Assembly: GCA_010645155.1 (NCBI GenBank)
Contig: JAAGOF010000250.1
Location: forward strand, 546,747 to 610,746
Direction: 5' to 3'
Source of the DNA: Tigriopus japonicus
Lineage: Eukaryota; Arthropoda; Copepoda; Harpacticoida; Harpacticidae
Length of the DNA stretch: 64,000 bases
A program made the translations under genes and the position numbers. Shown one piece after another: positions 28,661-45,959 of this stretch (the stretch's first letter is position 1; each line of letters starts with the position of its first letter). The notes beneath the pieces were generated by a model. It had not been told where the DNA came from, searched no databases, and saw only the letters and a program-made list of their open reading frames with translations.

Positions 28661-28905
28661 ACGGCCGTCAGAGAATCTGTGGTCACGGCAGCTTCAGTGA
28701 CAGCTTTGTCAACACAGCCTGAGGTGCAAGAAAGGAGAAGAGCTAACCCCAAGCTTGCTCCTTGGGAATAGACAAGAGAACTACTTAAGTGGCTTGAGAG
28801 AAGCGCTTTGAAGTCTCAGCTCAGGGCAAGCGAGCTTTTGCTGCTTTCAAACCTGCCATCTCTTTAATGCTGCCGTGACCACAGATTCTCTGAGAGCCGT
28901 TTATA
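28656..28905. repeat. Inverted repeat interrupting BEL gag
   Basis: 36-bp arms, 34 of 36 identical when inverted: TATAAACGGC then CAGAGAATCTGTGGTCACGG on the left, and its complement on the right, around a 178-bp spacer. Both arms can encode AAVTTDSL-x-AVY, the left on the minus strand and the right on the plus strand, so the arms are duplicated coding sequence rather than transposon termini. The spacer has stops in the gag frame. Confidence 0.8.
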
Positions 28906-31900
28906 AGCAAAGTCGCCTCCATTTGGAGTTACTTGCTGGCTCTGTGGCTCTAATTGAGGAAAAGAAAAGCCTAGTAGAAGAGAACGAGCGCGTGGATTGC
29001 GATCACCTTGTGGAAGAGATCCGTCAAGAATCGGCGGAGTTTTCCACCTTTTTGCGGAATTTTTTGGTCGATCAGAGCGACGCTGAAAGCCATCATAGTT
29101 TCCGATCAAACCAAAGCGCCAGATCTTCAGCGTCCAGCCAACGGGCTGAAGCTCGGGTCCAGTTAGCCAAGAAGAGAGCGGAGATGTCTAACGCCAACAA
29201 AATGACAGAGCTGGAGCTGGAGCGAATTTCCTTGAATGCTCGGATTGATCAGGCAAGACGGGAAAATGATTTAGCAGCTCTGGAAGCCGAGCTGCAGGTC
29301 AGGGATCAAATCGAAGCGGAGGAGTCGAGGCCGCAGTTGCCCAAGGTCTCGAATAGCAAGATGAATTATCCCGTCAATGTCGCGCCGTTAAACAAGGCGG
29401 AAAGAGGGCAATCGTCATGTACTCAGACTTTGGTGCATCAAAGCAAGCTTAACCCGGTCGCAGAGGTATTTCAGCCCCACCCAAGGGTGGAGCAATCTGA
29501 TGCTTCAATGATCGTCGACATGATGAGAAGACAGGCCATCAGCCATCGAATTGAACCCTTTTCGGGCAATCCCGTTGATTTTCGACATTTTTGGAAGCGA
29601 GTAGAGGACATCATCGAACGAAATCTTCCAGATCAAAGATCAAGATTGCATCGTCTACTGGAAGTCGTGGAAGGAGATCCCAGGCTATTGATCGATGGGT
29701 GTGTGTTTCTTCCTGATGAGAGATGCTATAGTGAAGCCAAGCGTCTACTGTCAAGACGTTATGGCGATGATCTTCTTATTACCAACAAGTTTACGGAAGA
29801 ACTACGAGATTGGCCTACCATTGTGGACAATTGCGAAAAGAGTCTGGGTGATTTCTATAGTGCTCTCCTACGATGCTCGTCTGTGGTGAACCGGACCGAA
29901 TTGGATTCTCCTCGATTTTTGGGCGATCTCTTGGCTAAACTATCATTTAGAGCTAGGAATACGTGGAGGGGTATTGCCATGAAGAGACGGCGGGAGCCGG
30001 GTGGGCAAGAGACATTCCAAGATTTCTTGGACCTGGTGGAAGACTTGTTAGATCGCGCAAGAGATCCCGTGTACGGCGAAGAAGCCATCAAAGCAAAGGT
30101 TCATCGGATGAGTGAACGTCAAGGAACCAGATCTAATCAACATACCTCACATTCAAGTGCACCCAAGTTAAACTCCACTCACAGAGTAAGCACGTTCACC
30201 GTCACCGCGGGCAAAGAGGAAAAGGTGGACAGAAACATATGTCTCGCCTGTCCGAAGGTACATGACACCGACTCTTGTGAGATATTTAAGTCAAGAAGCT
30301 TAGAAGAACGAATTGAGTTAACAAGAATGGAAGGGGCATGCTTTGGTTGCCTAAGAAGAGGTCATATTTCACGCAAATGTCAGAGCCGAAAAACTTGTAA
30401 TCATTGTCAACGGAAACACCCAACATCTTTGCACAAAGAAGACAATGAGTTGTTCACATCTGAAGTTACCACTCGTGCCGTGGGAGTTGGTAGCTCGGTC
30501 GTAGCCATGAGCGTGGTTAGAGTGAGGGTGTCGCATGGAAGCAAGGTTGGAAAGTTCATGGAAGGGCTGGCGTTGCTTGACCCCTTAAGTTCGGGAACAT
30601 TTGCATCAATTAGTCTGATACAGGCTTTGGGAGTGTGCGGACCCAAAACTCGCATTGCCATCAACACACTCAATGGTGAAAAGTTGGAAGAAACCGAGGT
30701 GATTTCAGGTTTACGGGTACAACAAACGAACGGCGAGGGTGAAGTTCTGTTGGGCCCAACGTTCTCCAAATACCACATTCCACTCCAGGAAAAGGAAATC
30801 GCTACGCCCAATTTAATACGTAAATTCGGGGCCTTCAATACATTGTATCAAGATATCTCGAGCCTGGACATGAAACTTCCCGTTATCTTGCTGATTGGAG
30901 CAGATAACCCCTTAGCACTTCGACCATTGGAAGTGCGGGTCGGAGATGAAACTGACCCTTGGTCCCCTTACGCGGTCCGGACTGTGCTTGGATGGTCTGT
31001 TATGGGACCAATGACGGCTGGGGATGCAAAAGGAATTGGGAAGAAGGTATCATGCCATAGAACTATTGCCTTACCCAACCGAGTGGTCAACCGTGAGGTC
31101 ATCAGAGACTTGGGGGTAGTCGAGATGCTAGCAAGCTTGGGAAGTTTGGACTTCGTTACACCCAAGTTCTCGACCGCTTTATTGGATATGATGACCAGTG
31201 ATTCGATCTCAAACGACGACGTAGAATTCATGAACATTGTCAATAAAGGAACCCGTTTTGTGGATGGATTTTACGAAGTCCCTCTTCCAATCAAGGAGCG
31301 ACCTTTGATCATGGCTGAAAGCCGGGATTTAGCCAAGAAGATGATGATTTCCATCATAAAGCGATTCGACAAAGATCCCCGGATGAAACAAGATTACTTT
31401 GCGTTCATGGCTGACCTTCTGACAAACGATTATGCACGGGAGATTAACTCGACCAAGCTGGAGAAGACTATCATTGGCAGATCTCATTACATCCCACATC
31501 ATCCCGTTTACCATCCGAAGAAAAGATCGATCCGAGTTGTATTTAACTGCGCCAATCGGGTTGGAGGGCAGTCCATTAACGATCCTCTGCTCACCGGTCC
31601 TGATCTCACAAACCAATTGGTGGGCGTATTGCTGCGATTTCGGATTGAGTCGGTTGCCTTCACAGCCGACATACGGAAAATGTTTTATCAGGTTCGGGAT
31701 CCTGAGGATGACATGGATTACTTGCGATTTTGGTGGTTCAAATCCAATGACGAGAGCCAAGGCTTGGCAGAGTTTGAGATGACTCGCCACCTTTTCGGGG
31801 GAAGAAGCTCGCCGGGTTGCGCAAATTATGCCTTGAGAAGGACGGCCTTAGACCATGGGCATGAGTTCTCAACCGACGCAAGAGAGACTGTGACAAACAA

Positions 31901-34583
31901 TTTCTATGTGGATGATTGTCTGAGGAGCGTGGCATCCGTGGAAAAGGCTGTAGTATTAGCCAAAGAAGTGACGGCTCTGTGCAAGTGTGGAGGTTTTGAG
32001 CTCACCAAGTTCCTGTCCAATTCACGAGAATTTTTATCTCAGATGCCAAACGAAGTTCGCAGCCCCTCGCTGAAGACTGTGCAATTGGACGAAGCTGAGC
32101 TCCCCACGGAGAGGGCCTTGGGCGTGTTATGGCACATTGAAGACGATACCCTCGGGTTTCACGTTGAAGCAAAACAAGAAGTATCAACCAAACGATCAAT
32201 TTTGGCCATGGTCTCTAGCATTTACGATCCGATTGGGGCAGCTGCTGCGTTTATCCTTCCTGGAAGAATTTTGATGCAAGAGGCGTGCGCGGCCAAAATC
32301 GGTTGGGATGAGAGGGTCCCGCCCGACCTCGACAAAAAATGGAAAGATTGGCTCGGAACACTTTCCAATTTGACTAGTGTTCGAATACCGAGATCTGTCA
32401 AGCCTCCTGGATTTGGAGGAGTAGTTTCTCGTGAGCTCCACAGCTTTGGAGATGGATCTGTGACGGCCTATGGAGCTGTTGTATACCTGAGGTTGGAGGA
32501 TGATCGTGGCCAAATAAACGTAAGCTTGGTGGCTGGTTCGTTACTGGCTGCTTCAATTGCCCACCAAGTCAAGTCCGAGTTGCACTGGGAGGAACTGACC
32601 TGCTATTATTGGACTGATAGCATGGTTGTGATGGGTTATATTAATAACGATGAGAAGAGGTTCCATCTCTTCGTGGCAAATCGAGTCCGAAAAATCCGTG
32701 ATCTGACCCATCCTACCAATTGGAGACATGTCAAGTCCGCCCAGAACCCTGCAGACGATGCCTCCCGTGGATTGAGTTGTCGAGATGCCAATGCCAACTC
32801 CCGTTGGTTTAGAGGACCAGATTTTTTGTGGAACAAGCAAGCCACTTGGCGAGAACCAGAGACAAACCCATTTCAAATCAACGAGGATGATCCAGAGCTG
32901 AAACGCGAAAAGGTAGTTCGTTTGGTAGCCACCAATGAACCTGATTTCCTACATAGAATGATAGATCGTTATTCATCCTGGGAGAGGCTCAAGAAGGCTG
33001 TGTCAGTTTGGATTCACTTTGTTGAATATGTCAGAAGCAAGGCCATTCCTAATACTGCGCTGGAAGTGGATGCCTTATTGAAAGCAGAACGTTTCCTCGT
33101 CAAGAATGAACAAGATAGGGCCTTTGGAGCCGATTTGAAGACATTGGAGAACACGGAAATCGATGGAAGGCGCAACAAACAGAGAGTCCTGGCAAAAGTC
33201 AAAAGCCCATTAGCCAAGTTGGACCCGTTGAAGGACGAGAGCGGCTTATTGCGTGTGGGAGGACGACTTAATCGCCTAGGCAACGAAGAGGTGAACCCTG
33301 TTGTACTTCCCAAGTCCAGCAAGCTCACCCAGCTTATTATTCGGACATTTCATCGTCAAGTTGGCCATGGGGGACGCGGAGCCACCATGAATGCGATTCG
33401 ACAAGGAGGGTGGTGGGTTGTGGGCTTGAACTCGGCCGTTCGAAGCTTTGTGGGTCAGTGCTTCCAATGTCGGATTCTCCGCGGTCAAGTGGAGCAACCC
33501 AAGATGTCAGATTTGCCCGTGGACAGGATGCAAAATGCCCCTCCATTCACCTTTGTTGGTGTTGATTATTTCGGACCGTTTGTAATCAAGAACAAACGTA
33601 AGGAAGAGAAGAGGTATGGGGTCATTTTTTCATGCTTATCATCAAGATCCGTCCACATTGAAATCGCACACTCCATGGACACGTCATCGTACATTGGAGC
33701 TCTCAGAAGAATGATCGCACGCCGAGGACCCATTCGCCTCTTAAGATCAGATAATGGTCTCAATTTTGTTGGAGGAGATCGAGAGTTGAACGAAGCTCTC
33801 AATGAAATGGATCAGAAGAAAATTGCCGCCTTTCTCAATGAACGTGGAGCTGACTACCAGGGTTGGAAAAGAAATCCGCCATCAGCCTCCAACTTTGGTG
33901 GCGTATGGGAACGACAGATCAGGTCAGTTCGATCGATCTTGGAGGCATTGATGATGGAATATGGCCACATCTTAAATGATGAGACCTTTGTGACCCTGAT
34001 GTGTGAGGTGGAGGCTATAATCAATTCCCGTCCTCTCACTGTGGACACCTTGAGTGATTCTGATAGTCCGATGCCTCTATCGCCGTCCATGCTATTGACA
34101 CAGAAGACGAGGGTGATACTTCCACCCCCAGGAGAATTTCAAAGAGCCGATGTGTATTGCCGTCGTCATTGGCGCCGAACCCAATTCCTTGCTGACCAAT
34201 TCTGGAGCAGATTTCGAAGAGAGTACTTAGACTCCCTTCAGCCCAGGTCCAAATGGAACAAGGCTAGTCTCAATTTGACAGTGGGTGATGTGGTTATGCT
34301 CAAGGAGGATAACATGATGAGGAACTCATGGAAGTTAGCTCGCGTGTCAGAAACATTCTTAAGTGACGATGGCGTCGTTCGCAGCGTCAAGATCCGGATC
34401 GGAGATCGAGACTCTAAAAATCTTAAATCCTTCCGTACATCAGAGCTATATAGGCCAACGAACAAGCTTGTTCTCCTTGAGCGAGCAAGGACCGGAGGGA
34501 TACCCGACGAAGGAGCCAACCACGACCGAGTCATTCAGGACAAGCCAAAACCGCCTCCGGATTTTGGAGGGAGCCAGATATGA
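28875..34583 (+). CDS. BEL/Pao retrotransposon gag-pol polyprotein
   Basis: One uninterrupted frame of about 1900 codons. Residues 1-470 are gag-like (Gln/Glu-rich helices, then PFSGNPVDFRHFWKR, the DUF1759-type capsid signature). A zinc region follows (CLACPKVH...C, CFGCLRRGHISRKC, CNHCQRKH). The protease segment reads ALLDPLSSGTF, where BEL proteases normally have D-x-G. RT has FTADIRKMFYQV, HLFGGRSSPGCANYA and the YVDD active site near residue 1013. RNase H has FGDGSVTAYGA and WTDSMVVMGYI. Integrase has the H-H-C-C finger (HRQVGHGG...CFQC) and catalytic Asp1564, Asp1626 and Glu1679 (VDYFGP, RSDNG, GGVWERQ). The frame ends with TGA, which is the first triplet of the 3' LTR. Intact from capsid to integrase, so a recent copy. 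Confidence 0.96.
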   Translation: MTTDSLRAVYKQSRLHLELLAGSVALIEEKKSLVEENERVDCDHLVEEIRQESAEFSTFLRNFLVDQSDAESHHSFRSNQSARSSASSQRAEARVQLAKKRAEMSNANKMTELELERISLNARIDQARRENDLAALEAELQVRDQIEAEESRPQLPKVSNSKMNYPVNVAPLNKAERGQSSCTQTLVHQSKLNPVAEVFQPHPRVEQSDASMIVDMMRRQAISHRIEPFSGNPVDFRHFWKRVEDIIERNLPDQRSRLHRLLEVVEGDPRLLIDGCVFLPDERCYSEAKRLLSRRYGDDLLITNKFTEELRDWPTIVDNCEKSLGDFYSALLRCSSVVNRTELDSPRFLGDLLAKLSFRARNTWRGIAMKRRREPGGQETFQDFLDLVEDLLDRARDPVYGEEAIKAKVHRMSERQGTRSNQHTSHSSAPKLNSTHRVSTFTVTAGKEEKVDRNICLACPKVHDTDSCEIFKSRSLEERIELTRMEGACFGCLRRGHISRKCQSRKTCNHCQRKHPTSLHKEDNELFTSEVTTRAVGVGSSVVAMSVVRVRVSHGSKVGKFMEGLALLDPLSSGTFASISLIQALGVCGPKTRIAINTLNGEKLEETEVISGLRVQQTNGEGEVLLGPTFSKYHIPLQEKEIATPNLIRKFGAFNTLYQDISSLDMKLPVILLIGADNPLALRPLEVRVGDETDPWSPYAVRTVLGWSVMGPMTAGDAKGIGKKVSCHRTIALPNRVVNREVIRDLGVVEMLASLGSLDFVTPKFSTALLDMMTSDSISNDDVEFMNIVNKGTRFVDGFYEVPLPIKERPLIMAESRDLAKKMMISIIKRFDKDPRMKQDYFAFMADLLTNDYAREINSTKLEKTIIGRSHYIPHHPVYHPKKRSIRVVFNCANRVGGQSINDPLLTGPDLTNQLVGVLLRFRIESVAFTADIRKMFYQVRDPEDDMDYLRFWWFKSNDESQGLAEFEMTRHLFGGRSSPGCANYALRRTALDHGHEFSTDARETVTNNFYVDDCLRSVASVEKAVVLAKEVTALCKCGGFELTKFLSNSREFLSQMPNEVRSPSLKTVQLDEAELPTERALGVLWHIEDDTLGFHVEAKQEVSTKRSILAMVSSIYDPIGAAAAFILPGRILMQEACAAKIGWDERVPPDLDKKWKDWLGTLSNLTSVRIPRSVKPPGFGGVVSRELHSFGDGSVTAYGAVVYLRLEDDRGQINVSLVAGSLLAASIAHQVKSELHWEELTCYYWTDSMVVMGYINNDEKRFHLFVANRVRKIRDLTHPTNWRHVKSAQNPADDASRGLSCRDANANSRWFRGPDFLWNKQATWREPETNPFQINEDDPELKREKVVRLVATNEPDFLHRMIDRYSSWERLKKAVSVWIHFVEYVRSKAIPNTALEVDALLKAERFLVKNEQDRAFGADLKTLENTEIDGRRNKQRVLAKVKSPLAKLDPLKDESGLLRVGGRLNRLGNEEVNPVVLPKSSKLTQLIIRTFHRQVGHGGRGATMNAIRQGGWWVVGLNSAVRSFVGQCFQCRILRGQVEQPKMSDLPVDRMQNAPPFTFVGVDYFGPFVIKNKRKEEKRYGVIFSCLSSRSVHIEIAHSMDTSSYIGALRRMIARRGPIRLLRSDNGLNFVGGDRELNEALNEMDQKKIAAFLNERGADYQGWKRNPPSASNFGGVWERQIRSVRSILEALMMEYGHILNDETFVTLMCEVEAIINSRPLTVDTLSDSDSPMPLSPSMLLTQKTRVILPPPGEFQRADVYCRRHWRRTQFLADQFWSRFRREYLDSLQPRSKWNKASLNLTVGDVVMLKEDNMMRNSWKLARVSETFLSDDGVVRSVKIRIGDRDSKNLKSFRTSELYRPTNKLVLLERARTGGIPDEGANHDRVIQDKPKPPPDFGGSQI

Positions 34584-35585: not shown

Positions 35586-37271
35586 ACATTACGAAACTTA
35601 AAGCATTTTGTTCGTAAAAGCACCAAAAATGCCTTATGAGTCCTTTAAGCGCAACCAGTGAAATGGAAAACACGTGCAACCTTTGAGCTTTAATTCGCAA
35701 ATTTTTTATTCTTACGTGTCCAATATACATTGAGAAGTTCGAAAATATGTCAAACGTTTGTGTCTGGGTGCGATATTTGGAGCTGTATTACTAATACATT
35801 AAAATACGAAATATTTAAAAAAAATATAAAAAAAATAGATACATTCGTCCAGTCTTATGTACTGTGACCTCCCAGTCAGCTGCTTGTTAAAGGACCCATA
35901 TAAAATCCCTTAAATTGTGGCCAGTTGTGTAGTGAAGAATTGGTCAGCGAGGAAAAAATACCGTCAGCCGAGATTTTCCCTTAAATTGAGATCTCTTGAA
36001 TAGACATCCAACTGAATGTACTCGTACAACGTCCAAAACTCGCCCATTCTCCTTAATAGTTTTTTTTGGGAATCATTTGAGTTTTTTTAAATTGATAAGA
36101 TTTCGGGAAAATGATTACATTTTTGACAAAACATGCCTTAAAAGTAATTATTGAACATGTAACAACAATCCAAATTATTCTGAATGTTATGTGAACTATA
36201 TTTATTCTACATGTCCACTAGATTTGCGCAACATTTACTTCACGACTGACTTAAAGCTTTAGACTGACTGAAGTACACTTCAAAACCTTTGAAAACTTGA
36301 ACCATGGTGAAGATCCTCTAACATCTGAAACGTGTCAAAAAGGCCAAAAATGTATGTAAAAGATAAAGTGGAAAATGTTATTTATTTTTCCGAGCTCTCT
36401 TTATCAAGCACGATTTGTTAGTAAAAAACAAGTACGTACAAGTCAACACATCGTCACCATTAAGTTACGTACAAGTAAAAAACACCTGAAGAAATGTTGT
36501 AGGAAATGAAATACAACAATATCTTATAAAATTAGTGATATACCGAAAGAGCTTTTGGCCGAAATTTCGGGTTGGTTAATCGACAAAATGACCCTTGACT
36601 CACGAGTCTTCAAAAAATCGACTCAATCAAAGGCCTACTAAGGAGTCCTAACTCATACTAATAATGAAGGGAAAGGACAGGAGTCAAGGACGACGTCAAA
36701 CTCACCAAGTTTGAACATGATCCCGGATTCCTTGATTCGGGAGAGAAAGTAAAAATCAACGGAGGTGACTGGATTCTTTGATATAAAAAGCTCAAACCAG
36801 GGAGGGGCTTACCTGACCTTTAAACCTAAAATCGACACACTTCAAAGAGCCCTAGCATTGGCAAAAAGAGGGCGCAAAACATTTATCAATAAGTTAGCCG
36901 CAACCATGAATATTGGTTAAAAGTTGTCCGGATCAGAAATAATAAGCGGTCAAGTCAACGGATAGCATCAATTGGATACTCAAAAATAACCTCTCCATCC
37001 CGATTTTTTTTTCAAAAAACAAATTACAATCAGTAGTAGCCTGATTTCCCGACGTTAAATGTTCCTTCGAGGAATCAATCCTATCCGCGATCCGCCTCTA
37101 AAAAATCCTCTATTTGGAGCTCAACTCAGCTGTTTTCCGTCACGCTGCGTTGAGTCCTTTGATGATAAAAACTCATGCCGAGTGATGTTTTAAAGGAGTC
37201 CAAGTTGGGCGACCTTCGTATTATGAGCCTCGCTTCGAGATTACTTAGGTAGTTAGTTCGTCTCAAAAGCG
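35586..37271. other. Intergenic region upstream of DNA ligase III
   Basis: No gene recognised over 1.7 kb. AT-rich in its first part. The last 250 bp are GC-richer and should hold the LIG3 promoter and 5' UTR, with no TATA box seen, as expected for a housekeeping gene. Confidence 0.4.
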
Positions 37272-40200
37272 ATGGGTGACAATCGTTACAGTGCGGATTA
37301 CGCTAAGCGCGTGGCCAATTGCAAAAAGTGCAAGGCCAAGATCGACAAAGGCCAATTGCGGTTAGCCAAGATCACGGCCAACAATCCGTTCAGCGATGGC
37401 GGCGACATGAAGCTTTACCACCATCCCCAATGTCTCTTTGACACGTTCCAAAGAGCCAGACCCACCACCAAAATCATCGAGGTAGGTACGTAGGTGGGTA
37501 ATTCGTTCAAGTACGGGCCTTTTTTTGCTGCAATTTCCTCGACTTCCTCCTCAACATGTTACATACCTCATATATACACATGGGGTATTGTAGCCCAAGA
37601 TTCGTTTGGATGTATTGGATAGGATGCTTGATTTATCGTGAATTTGGTCTCTTTTAAGCGTGCAGGCACAGTATTGGCTGCTTTGACGGATACCTACGAA
37701 TCGGTTGACAAGTTTTGTAAAAATACTTACGTAGCCAAAGAAATTCGATGATATCAAAATTTTTGGGCAATGTTTGGCGGGAAATTGATAGGATCACAAT
37801 TTTGTTCGTTTTTTTATTCAAAAATATATAAAATAAAGTAATTTATCTTTTCTAAGCGACCCCTCGTCATTTGGATCATCACAAAGTTAAATCGGAATTG
37901 AAGTTCCATTGAAAATCCTGTTTAGCCAAACAAATAGCATTTTCAAAGTGCATGATGCATTTTTCAATTTTTTCTTACTTGCAGGAAATCGAGGATATCG
38001 AAGACTTTGCCGATCTAACGGACGAAGACAAAGCCCTCGTGAAGCAACTCATCAAGGACAATCCTCGGGCGTCCAAAGGTCCAACGCCCACCAAGAAAGC
38101 CACGCCCAAAGCCAAGGCGTCCAAAGCCAACACGCCCATTAAAAGTCCGCCCAAGGCTGCATCCCCGCCCAGTTCTACTCCAACCGCGGATTTGCCCGCA
38201 TCTGCGGCTTTAACCCGCTCCGTTCAAGGCGATCCTAATCACAAAGATAATGGATTCCGCCAATTCCGCAAAATTTGCGCCCGTTTAGCCGAAGAACCCA
38301 GTTACAATGCCAAAACCGAGATTGTCCGTCAATTCTTGACTCGTGGCACGGATCAGAGCTCGTTTAAAGGCGATTTATACGTTTGGGTCCGGTTGTTATT
38401 ACCGGGTACGGTCAAACGGGTGTACAATCTCCAATCCAAGCAATTGGTCAAGATTTTTAGTCGGATTTTTGGCACCTATGAAGAAGATATGTTGGAGCAT
38501 TTGGAAGCTGGTGACGTGGCTGACACGATCGCCGAGTACTTTGAAAAATCCAAGAAGGTTCAACCCAATAGTAAGGCCAATTTAACCCTACACCAAGTGG
38601 ACCAGCACCTGGAAGCCTTATCCCAATTGACTCGTGAGGATGACCAGCAATCCGAATTGACTCGAATCGCCGAGCAATGCACGTCCAATGATCTCAAGAT
38701 GATCATCCGCCTCATCAAGCACGACTTACGGATCCATGCTGGAGCCAAACACATCCTGGATGGCCTCCATCCCGATGCCTATGATGCCTTTAACAGCTCG
38801 AGAAACATCATGACTGTGTTGGATAAGGTCGTGGCCATGAGGAAGAGTGGCCAAATCAATGGGCCACTCGAGGTGGCCACGGCCTTGATGCATCCGGTTC
38901 AGCCCATGTTGGCCATGGCCTGTAAATCCGTAGATATGGCATTCAAAAAGTGTCCCAATGGCATGTACTCGGAGATCAAATACGATGGAGAGCGGGTTCA
39001 ATTACACAAACAGGGCTCGGATTTCAAATATTTTTCGCGAAGTCTCAAGCCAGTTCTACCTCATAAAGTAAGTCGAGGATAATTTTTATACCGGTATAAA
39101 TGCTTAACTCGAAAGAGACCAACGTGCTAGGAATTCTTTACACTAGGTTGGTATGAGATAGACTCTAGGAATTATTGGAAAGTGAGAGGATGAAGTGAAT
39201 TTACTACTGTCTGATCTGAATAACTAAAAAAATTTGGGGTTCATACAACATGTTTTTTTGCAATATTAGACCTAATGCGAACTCAGAGTAAGAAGCTTTT
39301 TGGGAATAGAGTGAGTCAAGGCAATCAAAAAGCTATTGATAGATTTCCTTGAAGTGAGCGTACCTTGTTTAGATTAAGATTCATAGTTTCACGCGTCGAT
39401 CAATTTCAAGAATACTTGGCCTTAATACAGTTAAAAGTTGGAAATGAAAATGCTCAGTTATTAAAGAACACTTAAAAAAAGAATAACTTTGTGCTGACCG
39501 GTTCATTAGTGACCATATATCTATTGTTTTATGTATGTTCATGGTTTAACCTTAAGTAACTGAACTTCTTTGGTTTTCAGGTGAAACACTTCAAAGACTT
39601 CATTCCGAAGGCGTTTCCCGATGGCTCTGATCTAATTCTGGATGCTGAGGTGCTCATGGTGGACAACAAAACAGGCGATCCTCTGCCTTTCGGCAGTTTG
39701 GGTGTGCACAAAGGGGCGGGTTTCAAGGATGCCACGCCCTGTTTGTTTGTATTCGATTGCCTCTACTACAACGGTCAGAGTCTGCTCCAACGACCCATTC
39801 AAGAACGGAGAAAACATCTTCTCGATCACATGGTGGAAGTGGGCAATCACATCAAGTTCTCAGAAGCCCTTCTAATCACCAAAAAGCAACAATTAGGCGA
39901 CATGATCAAGCGAGTCCTCGCCCAAGGTCTCGAAGGATTAGTCCTAAAAGACCTCAAGAGCATCTATGAACCGGGAAAACGTCATTGGTTAAAGGTCAAG
40001 AAGGACTATTTGAACGACGGAGCCATGGCCGATTCCGCGGATTTGGTGGTTTTAGGGGCGTGGTATGGCACTGGAGCCAAAGGTGGCCTAATGTCCATCT
40101 TTCTCATGGGATGTGTTAATCACGCCAAGACCAAATGGCACACGGTCACCAAAGTACACACAGGATTGGATGACAACGAGCTCGAACGCGTTCAAAAAGA

Positions 40201-41542
40201 GCTCGAACCCAATATGGAGAAAATTAAGGGCGATTACTCCAAAGTGCCTTCATGGTTGGATTGTACTCGGCAGATGACTCCGGATTTTGTGGCCAAGGAC
40301 CCGAAAAAATCGCCGGTTTGGGAAATCACCGGAGCCGAATTCACCAAAGCTGAGATTCACACGGCCTCAGGAATCTCGATTCGATTCCCGAGAATCACCA
40401 AGCAAAGGAAGGATAAAACTTGGCAGACGGCCACATCTTTGGATGAGCTCAAGGCCTTGTTTAAGGCCTCTAAAGAGAATGTGGACTTTGACATTGACTA
40501 CTCGAGTGAAAGCAGTCCCAAGAAGGAAATCAAGGCTGAACCTGAAAACGGTTCTCCATCTCCGAAACCAAGTCCAAAGGTCAAAGAAGATACACTGAAG
40601 CCGTTGGTTCCAACCACTTCGTCGACAAATGGACGCTCTTTCGAGAAGAATCACATCAAATCTGAATCAAGTGGGTTCGAGTTGATTGTCAAATCGGGGG
40701 ATTTATTCGTTGGGCCCAGTTCGAATGAGTCTTTGGCCCATTGTATCAGTCAAGATTGCAAATTGGGTAAGGGGATTGCCAAAATTTTTCGCGACAAATT
40801 CGGCCGGATCTCCGAAATCGAAGCTTGCAACGCCGGGATTGGCGAAGTGGCTCCACTCAAAGAAGGTAATCGATACATCTACAACCTTGTCACAAAGGCC
40901 AAATACCATCAGAAACCTACTTATGAGAGCCTTAGACAAAGTTTGGCAGCCATGAAGAGCCATGCTTTGAGCAACGGAGTGAGACAAATTTCCATGCCCA
41001 AGATTGGATGTGGATTGGACGGATTGAATTGGAATGCTGTTCGAACCTTGATTAAGAATGTGTTCTTGGATTGTAGCATTCGAATCACGGTTTATTTTGT
41101 CGGCCAAGGAGGTCAAGAAAACAGTAGTCCAATAAAGAAGGGCACTAATCAGAGTCCTGTGAAGAAAATTGCTCCCAAGAAGAGAGCAAGTTCTGACGAA
41201 GACGATGACTACAATGCTTCAACTGACGAGGAATCGACACCGCCGAAGGTCAAGGTTGAAAAGCTCGATCTTCCAGACCTTTTTGTGGATAAGAAAATTC
41301 GTTTAGTGGATGGCATTCGATTGCCGAAGAAAATGGAACGCTATGTGGTCGCTTACGGAGGAGAGATCTTGAGTGATTTCCAAGTTGGTGAAGCCACTCA
41401 CGTAATCTATCCCAAAGGTTCAAGGAAGAAGGAACTTTTGAACAACGCCCCTTCAACGGCGCTCCATCTCGACGAAACCTGGCTTCAAGACAGTATTAAA
41501 AAACAAAAATTGGCCCATATAAAATCCCACACGATTGCCTGA
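37272..41542 (+). CDS. LIG3: DNA ligase III with an inserted TARG1-type macrodomain, 1084 aa
   Basis: An ATP-dependent nuclear DNA ligase for single-strand break and base excision repair. Exons: 37272-37481, 37985-39067 and 39581-41542, all junctions phase 0 with GTAGGT or GTAAGT donors. Residues 1-70 hold the PARP-type zinc finger (CKKC ... HHPQC) that recognises nicks. The DNA-binding domain follows. The adenylation domain has EIKYDGER with nucleophile Lys402, EGLVLKD and KVKKDYL, then the OB-fold. Residues about 797-940 form a macrodomain of the TARG1/OARD1 type (SLAHCISQDCKLGKGIA, PTYESLRQSL, MPKIGCGLDG) with the two catalytic positions kept, Lys870 and Asp911. Residues about 998-1084 are the BRCT domain that in other animals binds XRCC1. 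Human LIG3 has no macrodomain. Ligase, macrodomain and BRCT all lie in one exon, so the fusion is not an annotation artefact. Confidence 0.97.
40676..41106 (+). other. TARG1/OARD1-type macrodomain within LIG3
   Basis: A sub-feature of LIG3, residues about 797-940. It opens with FELIVKSGDLFVG (macro strand 1), then SLAHCISQDCKLGKGIA (ADP-ribose-binding loop), RYIYNLVTKAK with the TARG1 catalytic Lys at 870, KPTYESLRQSLAAMKSHAL, and MPKIGCGLDGLNW with the catalytic Asp at 911, closing IRITVYFV. The order, spacing and both catalytic residues match human TARG1 (Lys84, Asp125), which removes mono-ADP-ribose from acidic residues and ADP-ribose from DNA bases. It is bordered by Ser/Lys/Pro-rich linkers on both sides. 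Confidence 0.93.
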
Positions 41543-41660: not shown

Positions 41661-43319
41661 CTAATGATCTTTCCGTCGTTTTCGGTCACGATCTCGGTCG
41701 CGTCGATCATCGTCCCCGGTGCGTTTACTACTGGCACGTTTGGCAGTATCCAAAAACTGATCCAAACCAAAGGGATCCTCATCTTTTTCGAACTGAACTG
41801 GTCCGGATCGCGACGCACCAGCCGCTCCACCGCGTTCGGTGCCGCTGAATTCTTTATCGGGCACAAATCGATTAGTTTGGCGTAACTCGTCCAGATCCTC
41901 ACCCCCATAAACCTCTTGATCCACATTCTTGCCCGGACGGTAAATGCTATTGCCCACGTTGGATTCTTTGCGCCAAGCTTCCGAGTAGACATTGTAAGCT
42001 TCATCATCGCCAAAGCCGGAGCTCATGCCGCCTGAAGCGTTGAAGAGGCGAGCATCGAAAAGGCCTTCACCCGTTGGCGCGGATTTCGCTGGCAGACCCA
42101 ACGCCACCAGTTCACTCACATCGCGCTCGCGATTACGCTCCAGCTTCGATCGGCGTTCAGGCGCGGCTCGCTCCAGATTGCGCTGGCGCTGCCGGTCACG
42201 GTGGCGCTCTTGGCGCAATTCATCGCGCTCCTTCTCGTCGTCGTCTTTCTTGGAGGCACTGCGTATGCCAGCGCGCTCTTCCCGCGCCTTTTGCGCCAAT
42301 TCGCGGAGTTTGCTCTCGTTCTCTTCTTTCTTCTTGGACGCCAATTTCTTCTCCAAATTCGACCTAGCCTCCACGGCTTCCCGAGCTTTGCGATCGGCGA
42401 TGAGCAAGGACTCGGCCAATTTGCTAAAGCCTTCATTGATATGAACCTCTTGTAGCCCTCGTCCATCGGCCGCCAGACGTTTATCCAAGGGAATGGTATA
42501 ACCCTTTTGATTCTTCCAATTCGAAATGCAAGGCGGGATCTTCCAATCTTGTTGCTCTTTCACCGTCACTTTTCTGGTAGGCGAGTGCATAACCGGCGCC
42601 GGTGGCGAGGGTGGCCCACGCGGCACCTTGGTGTTAATCTTAAACCTAGGCGGCGACATGGGATCGCGCTGCGCCTCCACCATCCGAATAACGCGCTGCT
42701 TAGCGCCCGAATTGAACTCATCGCCCTGTTGCGCCGGCGTATACCTAATGTACTGCGCCGGCGCCTGTTTCGCCGCCGCTTTGACCGGCAGCGCCGCGCT
42801 GATCTTGCCCGACACGAGTTTTTCTAAGGCAGCGCGCGTGGCTTCCGTGGTATCTTGTACGGTCTCTTCATCCGGACGCTGCAACGCGCTCTCATCTTCG
42901 TCGGTAATAGCTTTGGGGAGTAAGTCGCTGAACTTGCTATACACCACCTTGTCCGCGGTATGACCTTGACGCGCGATTAAATCATACTTGACCTGGCCTT
43001 TGGCGTCCAATTGGACGGCTAGGGCGTTACTGGGTTTCCGCCCATGGGTCGTTCCGGCCGGTCGACCCAAATCCAAGGGATATTGGGCCACGTGGATCTC
43101 GGGAAAGGCTCCACCCAAGCCGAAATCGCCGATGGCGCGCGGAATGAACCCGCGGCGATGTCCGTAGGGCGGCACCGTTTTCTCGAGGGCGGCCACGGCC
43201 GTGGAGGGCGCGCTTTCGGCCTGATTGGCGGCCTTGAGGCGTTCCTCATCGCGATCCCAGACCGATTGACTGGGGGCGGGCAAGAGGGCGGAGAGCGACA
43301 CGCCGGATGTCGAGGCCAT
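41661..43319 (-). CDS. SNW1: SNW domain-containing protein 1 (SKIP/Prp45), 552 aa
   Basis: A core spliceosome (NineTeen-related/Bact complex) protein and transcriptional coregulator in the nucleus. It is a single exon on the minus strand. The start is taken at 43319 (MASTSGVSLSALLP), because the additional upstream codons to 43421 have no family counterpart. The SKIP/SNW domain spans about residues 150-320 with the signature SNWKNQKGYTIPLDKRLA from residue 266, then KLAESLLIADRKARE. A charged helical region (KEENESKLRELAQKAREERA) and an Arg/Glu-rich segment follow, and the tail is Lys/Arg-rich (RRDRDRDRKRRKDH). The length is close to human (536). The codon use is GC-rich compared with its flanks. 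It converges on LIG3 with only 118 bp between the two stop codons. Confidence 0.96.
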   Translation of the reverse strand: MASTSGVSLSALLPAPSQSVWDRDEERLKAANQAESAPSTAVAALEKTVPPYGHRRGFIPRAIGDFGLGGAFPEIHVAQYPLDLGRPAGTTHGRKPSNALAVQLDAKGQVKYDLIARQGHTADKVVYSKFSDLLPKAITDEDESALQRPDEETVQDTTEATRAALEKLVSGKISAALPVKAAAKQAPAQYIRYTPAQQGDEFNSGAKQRVIRMVEAQRDPMSPPRFKINTKVPRGPPSPPAPVMHSPTRKVTVKEQQDWKIPPCISNWKNQKGYTIPLDKRLAADGRGLQEVHINEGFSKLAESLLIADRKAREAVEARSNLEKKLASKKKEENESKLRELAQKAREERAGIRSASKKDDDEKERDELRQERHRDRQRQRNLERAAPERRSKLERNRERDVSELVALGLPAKSAPTGEGLFDARLFNASGGMSSGFGDDEAYNVYSEAWRKESNVGNSIYRPGKNVDQEVYGGEDLDELRQTNRFVPDKEFSGTERGGAAGASRSGPVQFEKDEDPFGLDQFLDTAKRASSKRTGDDDRRDRDRDRKRRKDH

Positions 43320-45959
43320 GCTCAACGAGAGGCAAACACGGTCTGGATTGTCACGGCAAGCGAGCGAGAACTCTTGAACCAGCCTTTTTGAGATTGAAAT
43401 AGAAACGGGGGAAACACGCACTCGACGCTGGAAACTTATTTGTTGTTGATCGATGAACCTTTAGGATCAGGGAGGCCATGGTGAAATTGCCAATGGGTCA
43501 AATTGACCGGACCGGACGTTGGAGAGGTCAAGTGACGATGATGAATAGAACGGTTCTCGACAACCGTGGGCTTTTCAACTTTTTCAGCCTGGATTCTTCA
43601 CCTAGGGGCCAACTTTATCGACTCATTCAAGTTTCCCATGACAAGAGATAGGTTTAAAACCCTGAAACTGGAATTGTTCTAATAAAGGATGGATAGAATG
43701 AGCTCTATATTCAGAAAAAGTAAAAATTATGTATATTTTTTAACTTCTTCAAAACTTGAAAATCAAAGCAACAAAGAAAAATATCCATTTTCTTTCTTTA
43801 TTTCTGTGAATAAAACGGAAAAATATGGCATTTTTGTTTCTAAGATTGAAAATTCGGACAATGCGAAAAAAAAAAGTCCTGTCTTTCGAAAAGGCGAAAT
43901 CAATCCCCGCTCAAGATGTGACATTCCAGTGGGGTCGTGACAATCAGAGCTTTGAATTTGGCATAGCTGATGCCAACAGAAAGACCTTCTTCGTCTAAAC
44001 CTGGGGCAGTAGTTTTGGCCCAGCGAGCTGTTTGGCAGACGATTAGTGCCAGGGCTGCCAAATTATATTGCAGAACGCGATTGAAGAAGAAAGTTCTTCG
44101 TCCTTTTTAGTCTTCAAACGTTGTTTGTCAAAGTATTGGTGTCTTTATCAATCTAGCAAGCCAAAAAGGCGAATCATTCAAGAGTCTTGAGCCAACAACA
44201 TCAAAAGGGATTTACTTTTCTGTATTCTTGTAACACGTCACTAGAATAAGTTGCCAAAGGTCTTTAGAAAAATGAATTATATCGGGCTGGGGATTAACTA
44301 TCGAGATTGCTATAAAGATTAGCTATTTTTTTCATTTGTACTAATCAATCAGGGATATTCTCTCTTCTTGAAAGACCCCAGCCATGCAGACACGCCCTTA
44401 AAAGTACAATTGCTTATCTCTTTATCAGACTACAGAAGCTTTTGGAAACCCTGAGATTGTCCCCCTTTTTCATGAATGTGACTGGGTTTTGATTTTCTTA
44501 AATTTGGGAAAAACGACAACAAAACGGAAAATTTATTTGAACTGGAAAATATAGAGTTCTTAAGGAAGGACATCCTTTTACGGGCCTTCTTTGTTTTCTT
44601 GTCAAACTTGAACGCCCAACTCCATTTGGCACGTGCTTAGTAAGCAAAAGCTTGAATACGATTTAGATTTAAAAAAAAATCAAGTTGTGACGTCAGAGAG
44701 TAAAATTGATATAGAAAATGAACATACAATCAAATTGCTCACAGTTTGATAAATTTCAGTTCATTGATTTGAAGCCAAAAAGGTTTCAATTTAGAACTGG
44801 TTCTTTAAAAAGATTAAGAGCCAGAATATTGATTTTCTTTTAAGGCACCCTTAAGTGGAAATTCTTGTTGTCTTGTCTTGTTTTCTGCTTGGCAGAGCTG
44901 CCAAATCAAGCTATTAGAGCCATATTTTCATATCTTACTCAAACTTGCCACAACAATTCAAAACCCTGTTTTTAAAAAACTGTTTCGTTAGATTGAGAAG
45001 TAATTCAAGAAGTAATCCTATAGCTTCATTGTTTAATAGAAATTCATTTTAGACTTATTTTGCTCCATTTACCAAGTATTGCGACATTAAAATAGCATGA
45101 ATTTTTTTTTATGCATTCATTAAATTATAATAGTTATTATTGTGGCATTAGAAAAAATTTGATAACGCTCATTTTGACACCAAACCAGCCAGGATTCTTT
45201 AGTTGGCATGAACTAGTCCAAGAATTGGCGTTAAAAACCTGCCCTGAAATTTGTCTCTAAAATACGTCGACGATCGACGTAATAGTGTCTCCAAGTGAAA
45301 CGTGGCCACTCGAGAATTGCACACATTTCTTAATGGTGAAATTATGGAGTGTTCAAACTCATTCACTCTTGTCTAGACCCAATTATCGTTTAATGTGACG
45401 CATTCGGAAGAAGTCAGGATGTTTAAGCTCTAAGTTTTGCTCAACCATAAGACAATGAAAGTTGTCCTTCAGTAACAATCAGTCCGTGAACATTACAACA
45501 GAGTTAAAATGATATCAATGAAATCGCGTTACGAAGGCCAATGTAAAAGATTTGACATCACCACAAACAAATCAAAACTAAACCAATTTTTTAGGGATGA
45601 GAAAGTATAAAAACTGTTTTTGTGAAAACAATTCAGAGAGTTTTGTTTGTGCAAATTTCTTAAGATAGCGCTTACATAAACATGAAGGGAAAGATCTGTT
45701 CACCATGCCATTCTGTTTTTTTTTTTTGTTGTTGTTAGTGCGCTAGTTTTATTTCTACCAGTATTGATATTACTTAACCGGCCTTTTCGAAAGACAACAG
45801 ACCTCAAGTTCCTTAACAAAGAAAATATTCCTTTCTGTTTTCAAAAAAAGCTTCATATCTTTACCATTGTTGCCACCATCAAATCAAAAAGTGCAAGTTA
45901 AAACGTAATTCAATATCACAATTGATTCAAGTCAAAAAATCACTAAATTGGAAGTGTCA
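43320..45959. other. Gene-free stretch upstream of SNW1
   Basis: No gene recognised. The first 120 bp should be SNW1 5' UTR and promoter. The rest is AT-rich with short open frames of no content. A 17-bp palindrome, ACGTCGACGATCGACGT, lies near 45265. Confidence 0.4.

Follow-up and report, generated by a model that had tools for sequence, protein, structure and literature searches.

The window analyzed here is a stretch of 64,000 nucleotides from the copepod Tigriopus japonicus (contig JAAGOF010000250.1 of assembly GCA_010645155.1, positions 546,747 to 610,746), and it contains on its + strand, at positions 37272-41542, a gene for DNA ligase III (LIG3) whose reading frame includes a macrodomain of the TARG1 type. 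The gene consists of three exons (37272-37481, 37985-39067, and 39581-41542), each joined to the next in phase 0 at GT/AG borders, giving a coding sequence of 3255 nucleotides for 1084 residues with one terminal stop.

A ligase III frame with an internal macrodomain

Exon 1 (37272-37481) provides the start codon and a PARP-type zinc finger (Pfam zf-PARP, PF00645, about 37299-37472, E = 1.7e-13) and ends at the donor ATCGAG/GTAGGT. Exon 2 (37985-39067) encodes the ligase N-terminal DNA-binding domain (DNA_ligase_A_N, 9.2e-39) and the start of the adenylation domain (DNA_ligase_A_M), which is split over two exons, with a match of 3.7e-16 in exon 2 and one of 2.3e-35 in exon 3, the latter encoding its larger part. 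KYDGER, which we take to be ligase motif I, lies at residue 402. Exon 3 (39581-41542) is a single frame of 1962 nucleotides with zero internal stops, running from the rest of the adenylation domain through the OB-fold domain (40082-40417; DNA_ligase_A_C, 5.3e-14), a linker, the TARG1-type macrodomain, a second linker, and the BRCT domain (41270-41503; LIG3_BRCT, PF16759, 1.6e-13) to the stop codon. Along the protein, the Pfam order is zf-PARP, DNA_ligase_A_N, DNA_ligase_A_M, DNA_ligase_A_C, Macro, LIG3_BRCT. A previous sequence-only reading of this locus had given the same coordinates and residues, and its description of an uninterrupted 1962-bp exon passing in frame from OB-fold to macrodomain to BRCT is borne out by the frame and the Pfam matches.

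The solved ligase closest to exon 3 is human DNA ligase 3 (3l2p, E = 5e-124), compared with 1.6e-31 for the best LIG1 and 1e-24 for the best LIG4. The LIG3_BRCT profile has a single match at E <= 0.001 across the whole genome, indicating one LIG3 BRCT. A simple pattern scan inside exon 3 found neither a GTRAGT donor nor a long-pyrimidine acceptor, and splicing-out of the macrodomain within this exon appears unlikely for lack of strong sites by these patterns. An in-frame TAG (37254-37256) precedes the ATG by 18 nucleotides, so the first exon provides no mitochondrial leader of the type carried by the vertebrate mitochondrial form of LIG3; an alternative first exon is possible.

The macrodomain (40679-41107, residues 798-940) was delimited by PDB sequence match, Pfam, and structure model. 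Pfam Macro matches it with E = 2.1e-6 and 28.1 bits (cut-off 22), and a comparison of residues 790-945 with the PDB sequences returned human TARG1/C6orf130 as the best match (E = 8e-44; next macrodomain, 5e-6), with 75 identical residues among 142 aligned (53%). The structure model of the domain has a pLDDT (predicted local distance difference test score) of 89.6 and superimposes in Foldseek on 4j5s_C with a root mean square deviation of 0.8 Å over 141 columns. TARG1/C6orf130 fill ranks 1-8 of the Foldseek search, deviations from the TARG1 crystal structures range from 0.8 to 1.8 Å, and the nearest solved relative after TARG1 is DarG. Lys870 (codon 40895-40897) aligns with the catalytic Lys84 of human TARG1 and Asp911 (codon 41018-41020) with its catalytic Asp125, the two being spaced by 41 residues in both proteins, and the nucleotide/substrate loop SLAHCISQDCKLGKGIA is intact. 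The proposal of a LIG3 with an intact TARG1-type macrodomain, substrate loop, and catalytic pair thus finds full support in the sequence, the structure model, and the conservation among relatives (see below). Because the domain is internal to a frame of 1084 residues, it is named here a TARG1-type domain and not a TARG1 gene; a small free-standing protein is how TARG1 usually occurs, but the catalytic class is not defined by it.

In the AlphaFold2 model of exon 3, the folded macrodomain is flanked by two low-confidence linkers, both probably disordered: one follows the ligase core (40481-40636; model residues 301-352, pLDDT < 50) and the other precedes the BRCT domain (41105-41266; model residues 509-562, pLDDT < 50).

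Distribution, conservation, and origin of the fusion

In order to follow the fusion in other species, we surveyed the nearest relatives of the protein (all 76 of 76 matches, the best 120 of 163, and the best 120 of 1749), fetching 301 proteins, 130 of which were counted as LIG3. A macrodomain match was present in 35 of the 130. Two of these belong to named species, Tigriopus californicus and L. salmonis (the salmon louse); the remaining 33 are from metagenome or transcriptome sets, and from the two named species we infer that these are copepods as well. Two of the 33 are imperfect, P0209 having a decayed macrodomain and P0221 a truncated one; the P0209 ligase also has no Pfam BRCT match and represents a natural loss case. 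Matches to zinc finger, core, macrodomain, and BRCT are all present in 16 of the 35 fusion proteins. The nearest protein, T. californicus TCAL_13609, has the same domains, with 97% identity in the ligase core and 82% in the macrodomain region. Some fusion frames nearly fill their contigs, as in a cDNA (P0004, 1070 residues on 3305 nucleotides; P0020, 1079 residues on 3412 nucleotides), and P0027 bears the name of a TRINITY transcript, so that in relatives ligase and macrodomain share a single transcript.

We constructed two trees of the LIG3 core, one with 73 of 131 rows and one with all 131 (FastTree). In both, the 36 fusion rows (the 35 and the window) fall inside one 42-row clade with a support of 100. 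The six remaining members of this clade, without macrodomain, are P0247 and five rows without a BRCT match, which stop 2-121 residues past the core match. Outside the clade, the macrodomain is absent from 89 of 89 LIG3 rows, 69 of which have a BRCT match and 86 a tail of at least 100 residues; named members include Homarus, Procambarus, Palaemon, Hirondellea, Trinorchestia, many insects, a millipede, Capitella, and frogs. An unfiltered profile search for a hidden macrodomain in the 95 LIG3 rows lacking the fusion had no match better than E = 1.0. The sequence-only reading had asked whether other LIG3 orthologues share the insertion, and in the nearest relatives surveyed here all fusions fall within one clade.

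For conservation, we aligned the 46 LIG3-linked macrodomains (window included) that passed a length and identity cut. The catalytic Lys and the catalytic Asp are each present in 46 of 46 rows, P0209 and P0221 being left out. In five distant full-length fusions picked by hand, identity to the window is 56-67% for the macrodomain, 22-50% for the linkers, and 34-41% for the BRCT domain, with the macrodomain scoring above the BRCT in all five (e.g., 67% versus 36% in P0004). In T. californicus the macrodomain scores below the BRCT (84% versus 90%, with 70-78% for the linkers).

A macrodomain tree was built from 158 rows, 50 others having been dropped, including P0209 and P0221, and a second tree from 100 of the 158. 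The LIG3-linked macrodomains largely form one group within TARG1, comprising 43 of 46 rows in the 158-row tree (Shimodaira-Hasegawa-like approximate likelihood ratio, SH-aLRT, 82) and 35 of 38 in the 100-row tree (SH-aLRT 98). Short sequences are intermixed in this group and may represent pieces of fusion proteins or copies that became free; some relatives within it may thus have a free TARG1. Three LIG3 rows (P0042-P0044) have macrodomains that lie outside the main group and cluster with those of P0038-P0041 and P0127, in which a TARG1-type macrodomain near the C-terminus follows UBM motifs (and, in P0041, also IMS_C), presumably the C-terminal region of a polymerase of the Y family (pol iota or REV1 type). 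TARG1 has here been joined a second time to a protein that resembles a DNA-repair enzyme. A single clade of all fused macrodomains is not rejected (approximately unbiased test, p = 0.124), and a second acquisition may have occurred at P0042-P0044. P0247, without macrodomain, is found among the LIG3 kin of P0042 and P0043. A simple reading of these sequences would be a transfer of the macrodomain from LIG3 to the polymerase in the P0042-P0044 lineage.

TARG1-like macrodomains also occur in P0048-P0076, where 15 of the 29 rows have reverse transcriptase or integrase-type Pfam domains and two such retroelement-type rows are from named insects (Athalia and Neodiprion); TARG1-type domains seem to be part of some retroelements. 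LIG3-like TARG1 macrodomains were further found in P0034 and P0022, in frames with TatD DNase and PWI domains, either as genuine fusions or as artificial joins from assembly or gene prediction.

In the window, a long open frame upstream of LIG3 (28812-34583, + strand) resembles by eye a BEL/Pao-like long terminal repeat retrotransposon, with a DUF1759 match slightly under cut-off in its first piece. On the other side, a convergent neighbour (41661-43460, - strand), by eye the splicing factor SNW1/SKIP, ends about 120 nucleotides past the LIG3 stop.

ADP-ribose genes of the genome and possible role of the fusion

Whether the genome also carries a free TARG1 gene had been put forward as a check on the sequence-only reading. 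We searched the genome (194.85 Mb, 158 contigs) with the window macrodomain and with the free TARG1 of Armadillidium (a record marked UNVERIFIED_CONTAM) and found no second TARG1-type locus with these two queries; one further match (E = 0.27, with two stops inside) was taken as chance. The other Pfam Macro match of the genome is an exon-sized stretch on a different contig, belonging to a gene that resembles MACROD on visual inspection; in one open frame adjoining this exon, Pfam gave no family at E <= 0.01. Since the Macro match lies in a single exon of that gene, the search can detect split genes. A strongly diverged free TARG1 of many exons may exist elsewhere in the genome, and the LIG3 fusion is probably this genome's TARG1, as judged from these searches. 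The genome further encodes XRCC1 (XRCC1_N and two BRCT stretches) and HPF1. It has 14 places matching the PARP catalytic domain, five matching PARG, which perhaps represent three genes, and two ARH-type matches.

We propose that Tigriopus LIG3 carries a tethered TARG1-type hydrolase that removes ADP-ribose at PARP-modified breaks before they are sealed, a reading to which we assign a probability of roughly 0.7. The LIG3 BRCT binds XRCC1 in other animals, and here the zinc finger and BRCT would bring the ligase to PARP-modified breaks, while flexible tethers would hold the TARG1 domain, an ADP-ribosyl hydrolase of the ALC1-like class, between OB-fold and BRCT. There, the macrodomain could take ester-linked ADP-ribose off Asp and Glu residues of PARP1 and of other repair proteins nearby, and ADP-ribose off phosphates at DNA ends, leaving an unmodified 5'-phosphate before sealing; ester-linked ADP-ribose on PARP1 and its partners would be released at the end of repair. 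The macrodomain is very likely an active hydrolase; that it works mainly at LIG3-bound breaks appears probable to a lesser degree, and that DNA-end ADP-ribose is its main substrate is doubtful.

Published biochemistry is in line with several of these steps. TARG1 is reported to strip ADP-ribose from Asp and Glu and from DNA-end phosphates (PMC5725667, PMC7050489), acting on 5' and 3' phosphates in a manner abolished by D125A (PMC5725667), and its K84A variant is described as inactive (PMC8501950). Human ligase III-alpha without ATP was reported to join a gapped end bearing 5'-ADP-ribose, to a product for which there is circumstantial evidence of an abasic site (PMC5843604). Such faulty joining would be a reason for cleaning ends first, and erasure of ADP-ribose at a nick about to be sealed is a plausible fit to what these sources report on TARG1 and ligase III.

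Several observations weigh against this proposal. Within the clade, P0209 retains a decayed yet recognisable macrodomain (profile E = 9e-9) that has lost the Lys and Asp stretches, and P0247 has the BRCT with only a short linker and no macrodomain, which indicates that ligation need not be coupled to ADP-ribose removal in every member. In L. salmonis, an Arg replaces the second Gly of IGCGLDG (IGCRLDG), beside the catalytic loop. PARG, a MACROD-like gene, and ARH-type genes coexist with the fusion in the Tigriopus genome. Serine-linked ADP-ribose is said in abstracts to be the main damage-induced form. This linkage is described as being reversed only by ARH3 (PMC8501950). On DNA ends, TARG1 was among the weaker of the enzymes reported (PMC5725667), and the faulty joining was stopped when the ligase was loaded with ATP and was seen alike with every ligase tried (PMC5843604); the weak activity and the ATP-dependent abort leave a cellular need for an end-cleaner unproved.

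The macrodomain might alternatively be a reader, mainly binding ADP-ribose and aiding LIG3 recruitment to PARP-modified breaks, with hydrolysis slow or irrelevant. The macrodomain of the LIG3 orthologue in Dictyostelium, as one passage relates, emerged from a search in which ADP-ribose-binding macrodomains were the queries, and was taken to mark repair proteins (PMC5087659). Mere binding, however, should need less than the hydrolytic Lys/Asp pair kept in every aligned row, and the closest solved relatives, TARG1 and then DarG, are hydrolases. We hold this reading to be quite unlikely. We give still less credit to a passenger TARG1, in which the only TARG1 of the lineage was captured by chance and kept a cell-wide job (e.g., on O-acetyl-ADP-ribose or non-repair proteins), its location in LIG3 being mechanistically meaningless. 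Such a history agrees with the one TARG1-type locus found in the genome and with linkers that are of low confidence in the model and poorly conserved, suggesting that no fixed geometry is needed, but ligase and macrodomain have remained joined across a clade with deep branches, and a random passenger does not predict the same macrodomain type at the C-terminus of a Y-family-polymerase-like, DNA-repair-like protein in a side lineage.

For T. japonicus itself, the evidence is genomic DNA alone, and a misassembly, a gene-model error, or a contamination could in principle have joined two genes. The junctions, however, lie within one exon without splice-site consensus, and the same domain order is repeated in T. 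californicus, L. salmonis, and further proteins, some on cDNA-like contigs; this recurrence in other species makes the frame more than chance and led us to rule out an artefact, to which we grant a negligible probability.

The proposed tethered hydrolase can also be taken further, to a self-cleaning ligase that replaced free TARG1: its macrodomain would clear 5'-phosphates of ADP-ribose caps and PARP1 of ester-linked ADP-ribose at the nick, preventing misjoining of capped ends, and a macrodomain of the same origin would later have moved to a translesion polymerase in the side lineage. We consider this extended scenario unlikely; if it is true, TARG1 would be a module that moves among the DNA-repair enzymes of these animals.

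Comparison with known systems

In repair, TARG1 may act mainly on proteins, on DNA ends, or on both. A lineage in which TARG1 is hard-wired to the ligase that seals nicks marked by PARP gives a pointer to the site at which its activity is required. With the fusion, ligation and ADP-ribose removal can be disabled one at a time within a single protein, in an animal, Tigriopus, that is culturable in the laboratory. The cell functions of DNA-end ADP-ribosylation were called elusive in a review, which suggests that hydrolases are recruited or excluded to control its removal (PMC7050489).

The Tigriopus protein shares with LIG3 of other animals the zinc finger, the ligase N-terminal, adenylation, and OB domains, and the LIG3-type BRCT, and differs from them by the macrodomain, which is missing in all rows outside the fusion clade. 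With TARG1 (OARD1/C6orf130) it shares 53% identity, the fold, the catalytic Lys and Asp, and the nucleotide loop; that protein, however, is free, with 143-226 residues in the OARD1 rows (Amia, Ictalurus, Sycon, Pycnogonum, and Bradysia coprophila), whereas the Tigriopus version lies inside a ligase as one of its domains. The bacterial antitoxin DarG is more distant, with 24-26% identity to the macrodomain, and partners a bacterial toxin. Plant proteins combining an APL-type macrodomain with aprataxin and PNK domains likewise join a macrodomain to DNA-end-processing domains, but the macrodomain is described as circularly permuted and the partner domains are others (PMC5087659).

The closest precedent is a LIG3 orthologue with a macrodomain described from Dictyostelium in 2016 (PMC5087659). 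It is amoebozoan and is likened here by its description, the passage in question giving no macrodomain class, position, or catalysis; none of the 76 matches of the fully listed search is named as Dictyostelium. The sequence-only reading had been unaware of any report of this architecture; a macrodomain in LIG3 was in fact on record, while a copepod or arthropod version, TARG1-type or other, was not found in the PMC papers searched, which were those under open licence. For T. californicus, the protein is publicly recorded with the same Pfam domains. A macrodomain-bearing LIG3 is therefore a known kind, within which the arthropod TARG1-type form has a conserved catalytic pair and seems to stand in for a free TARG1.

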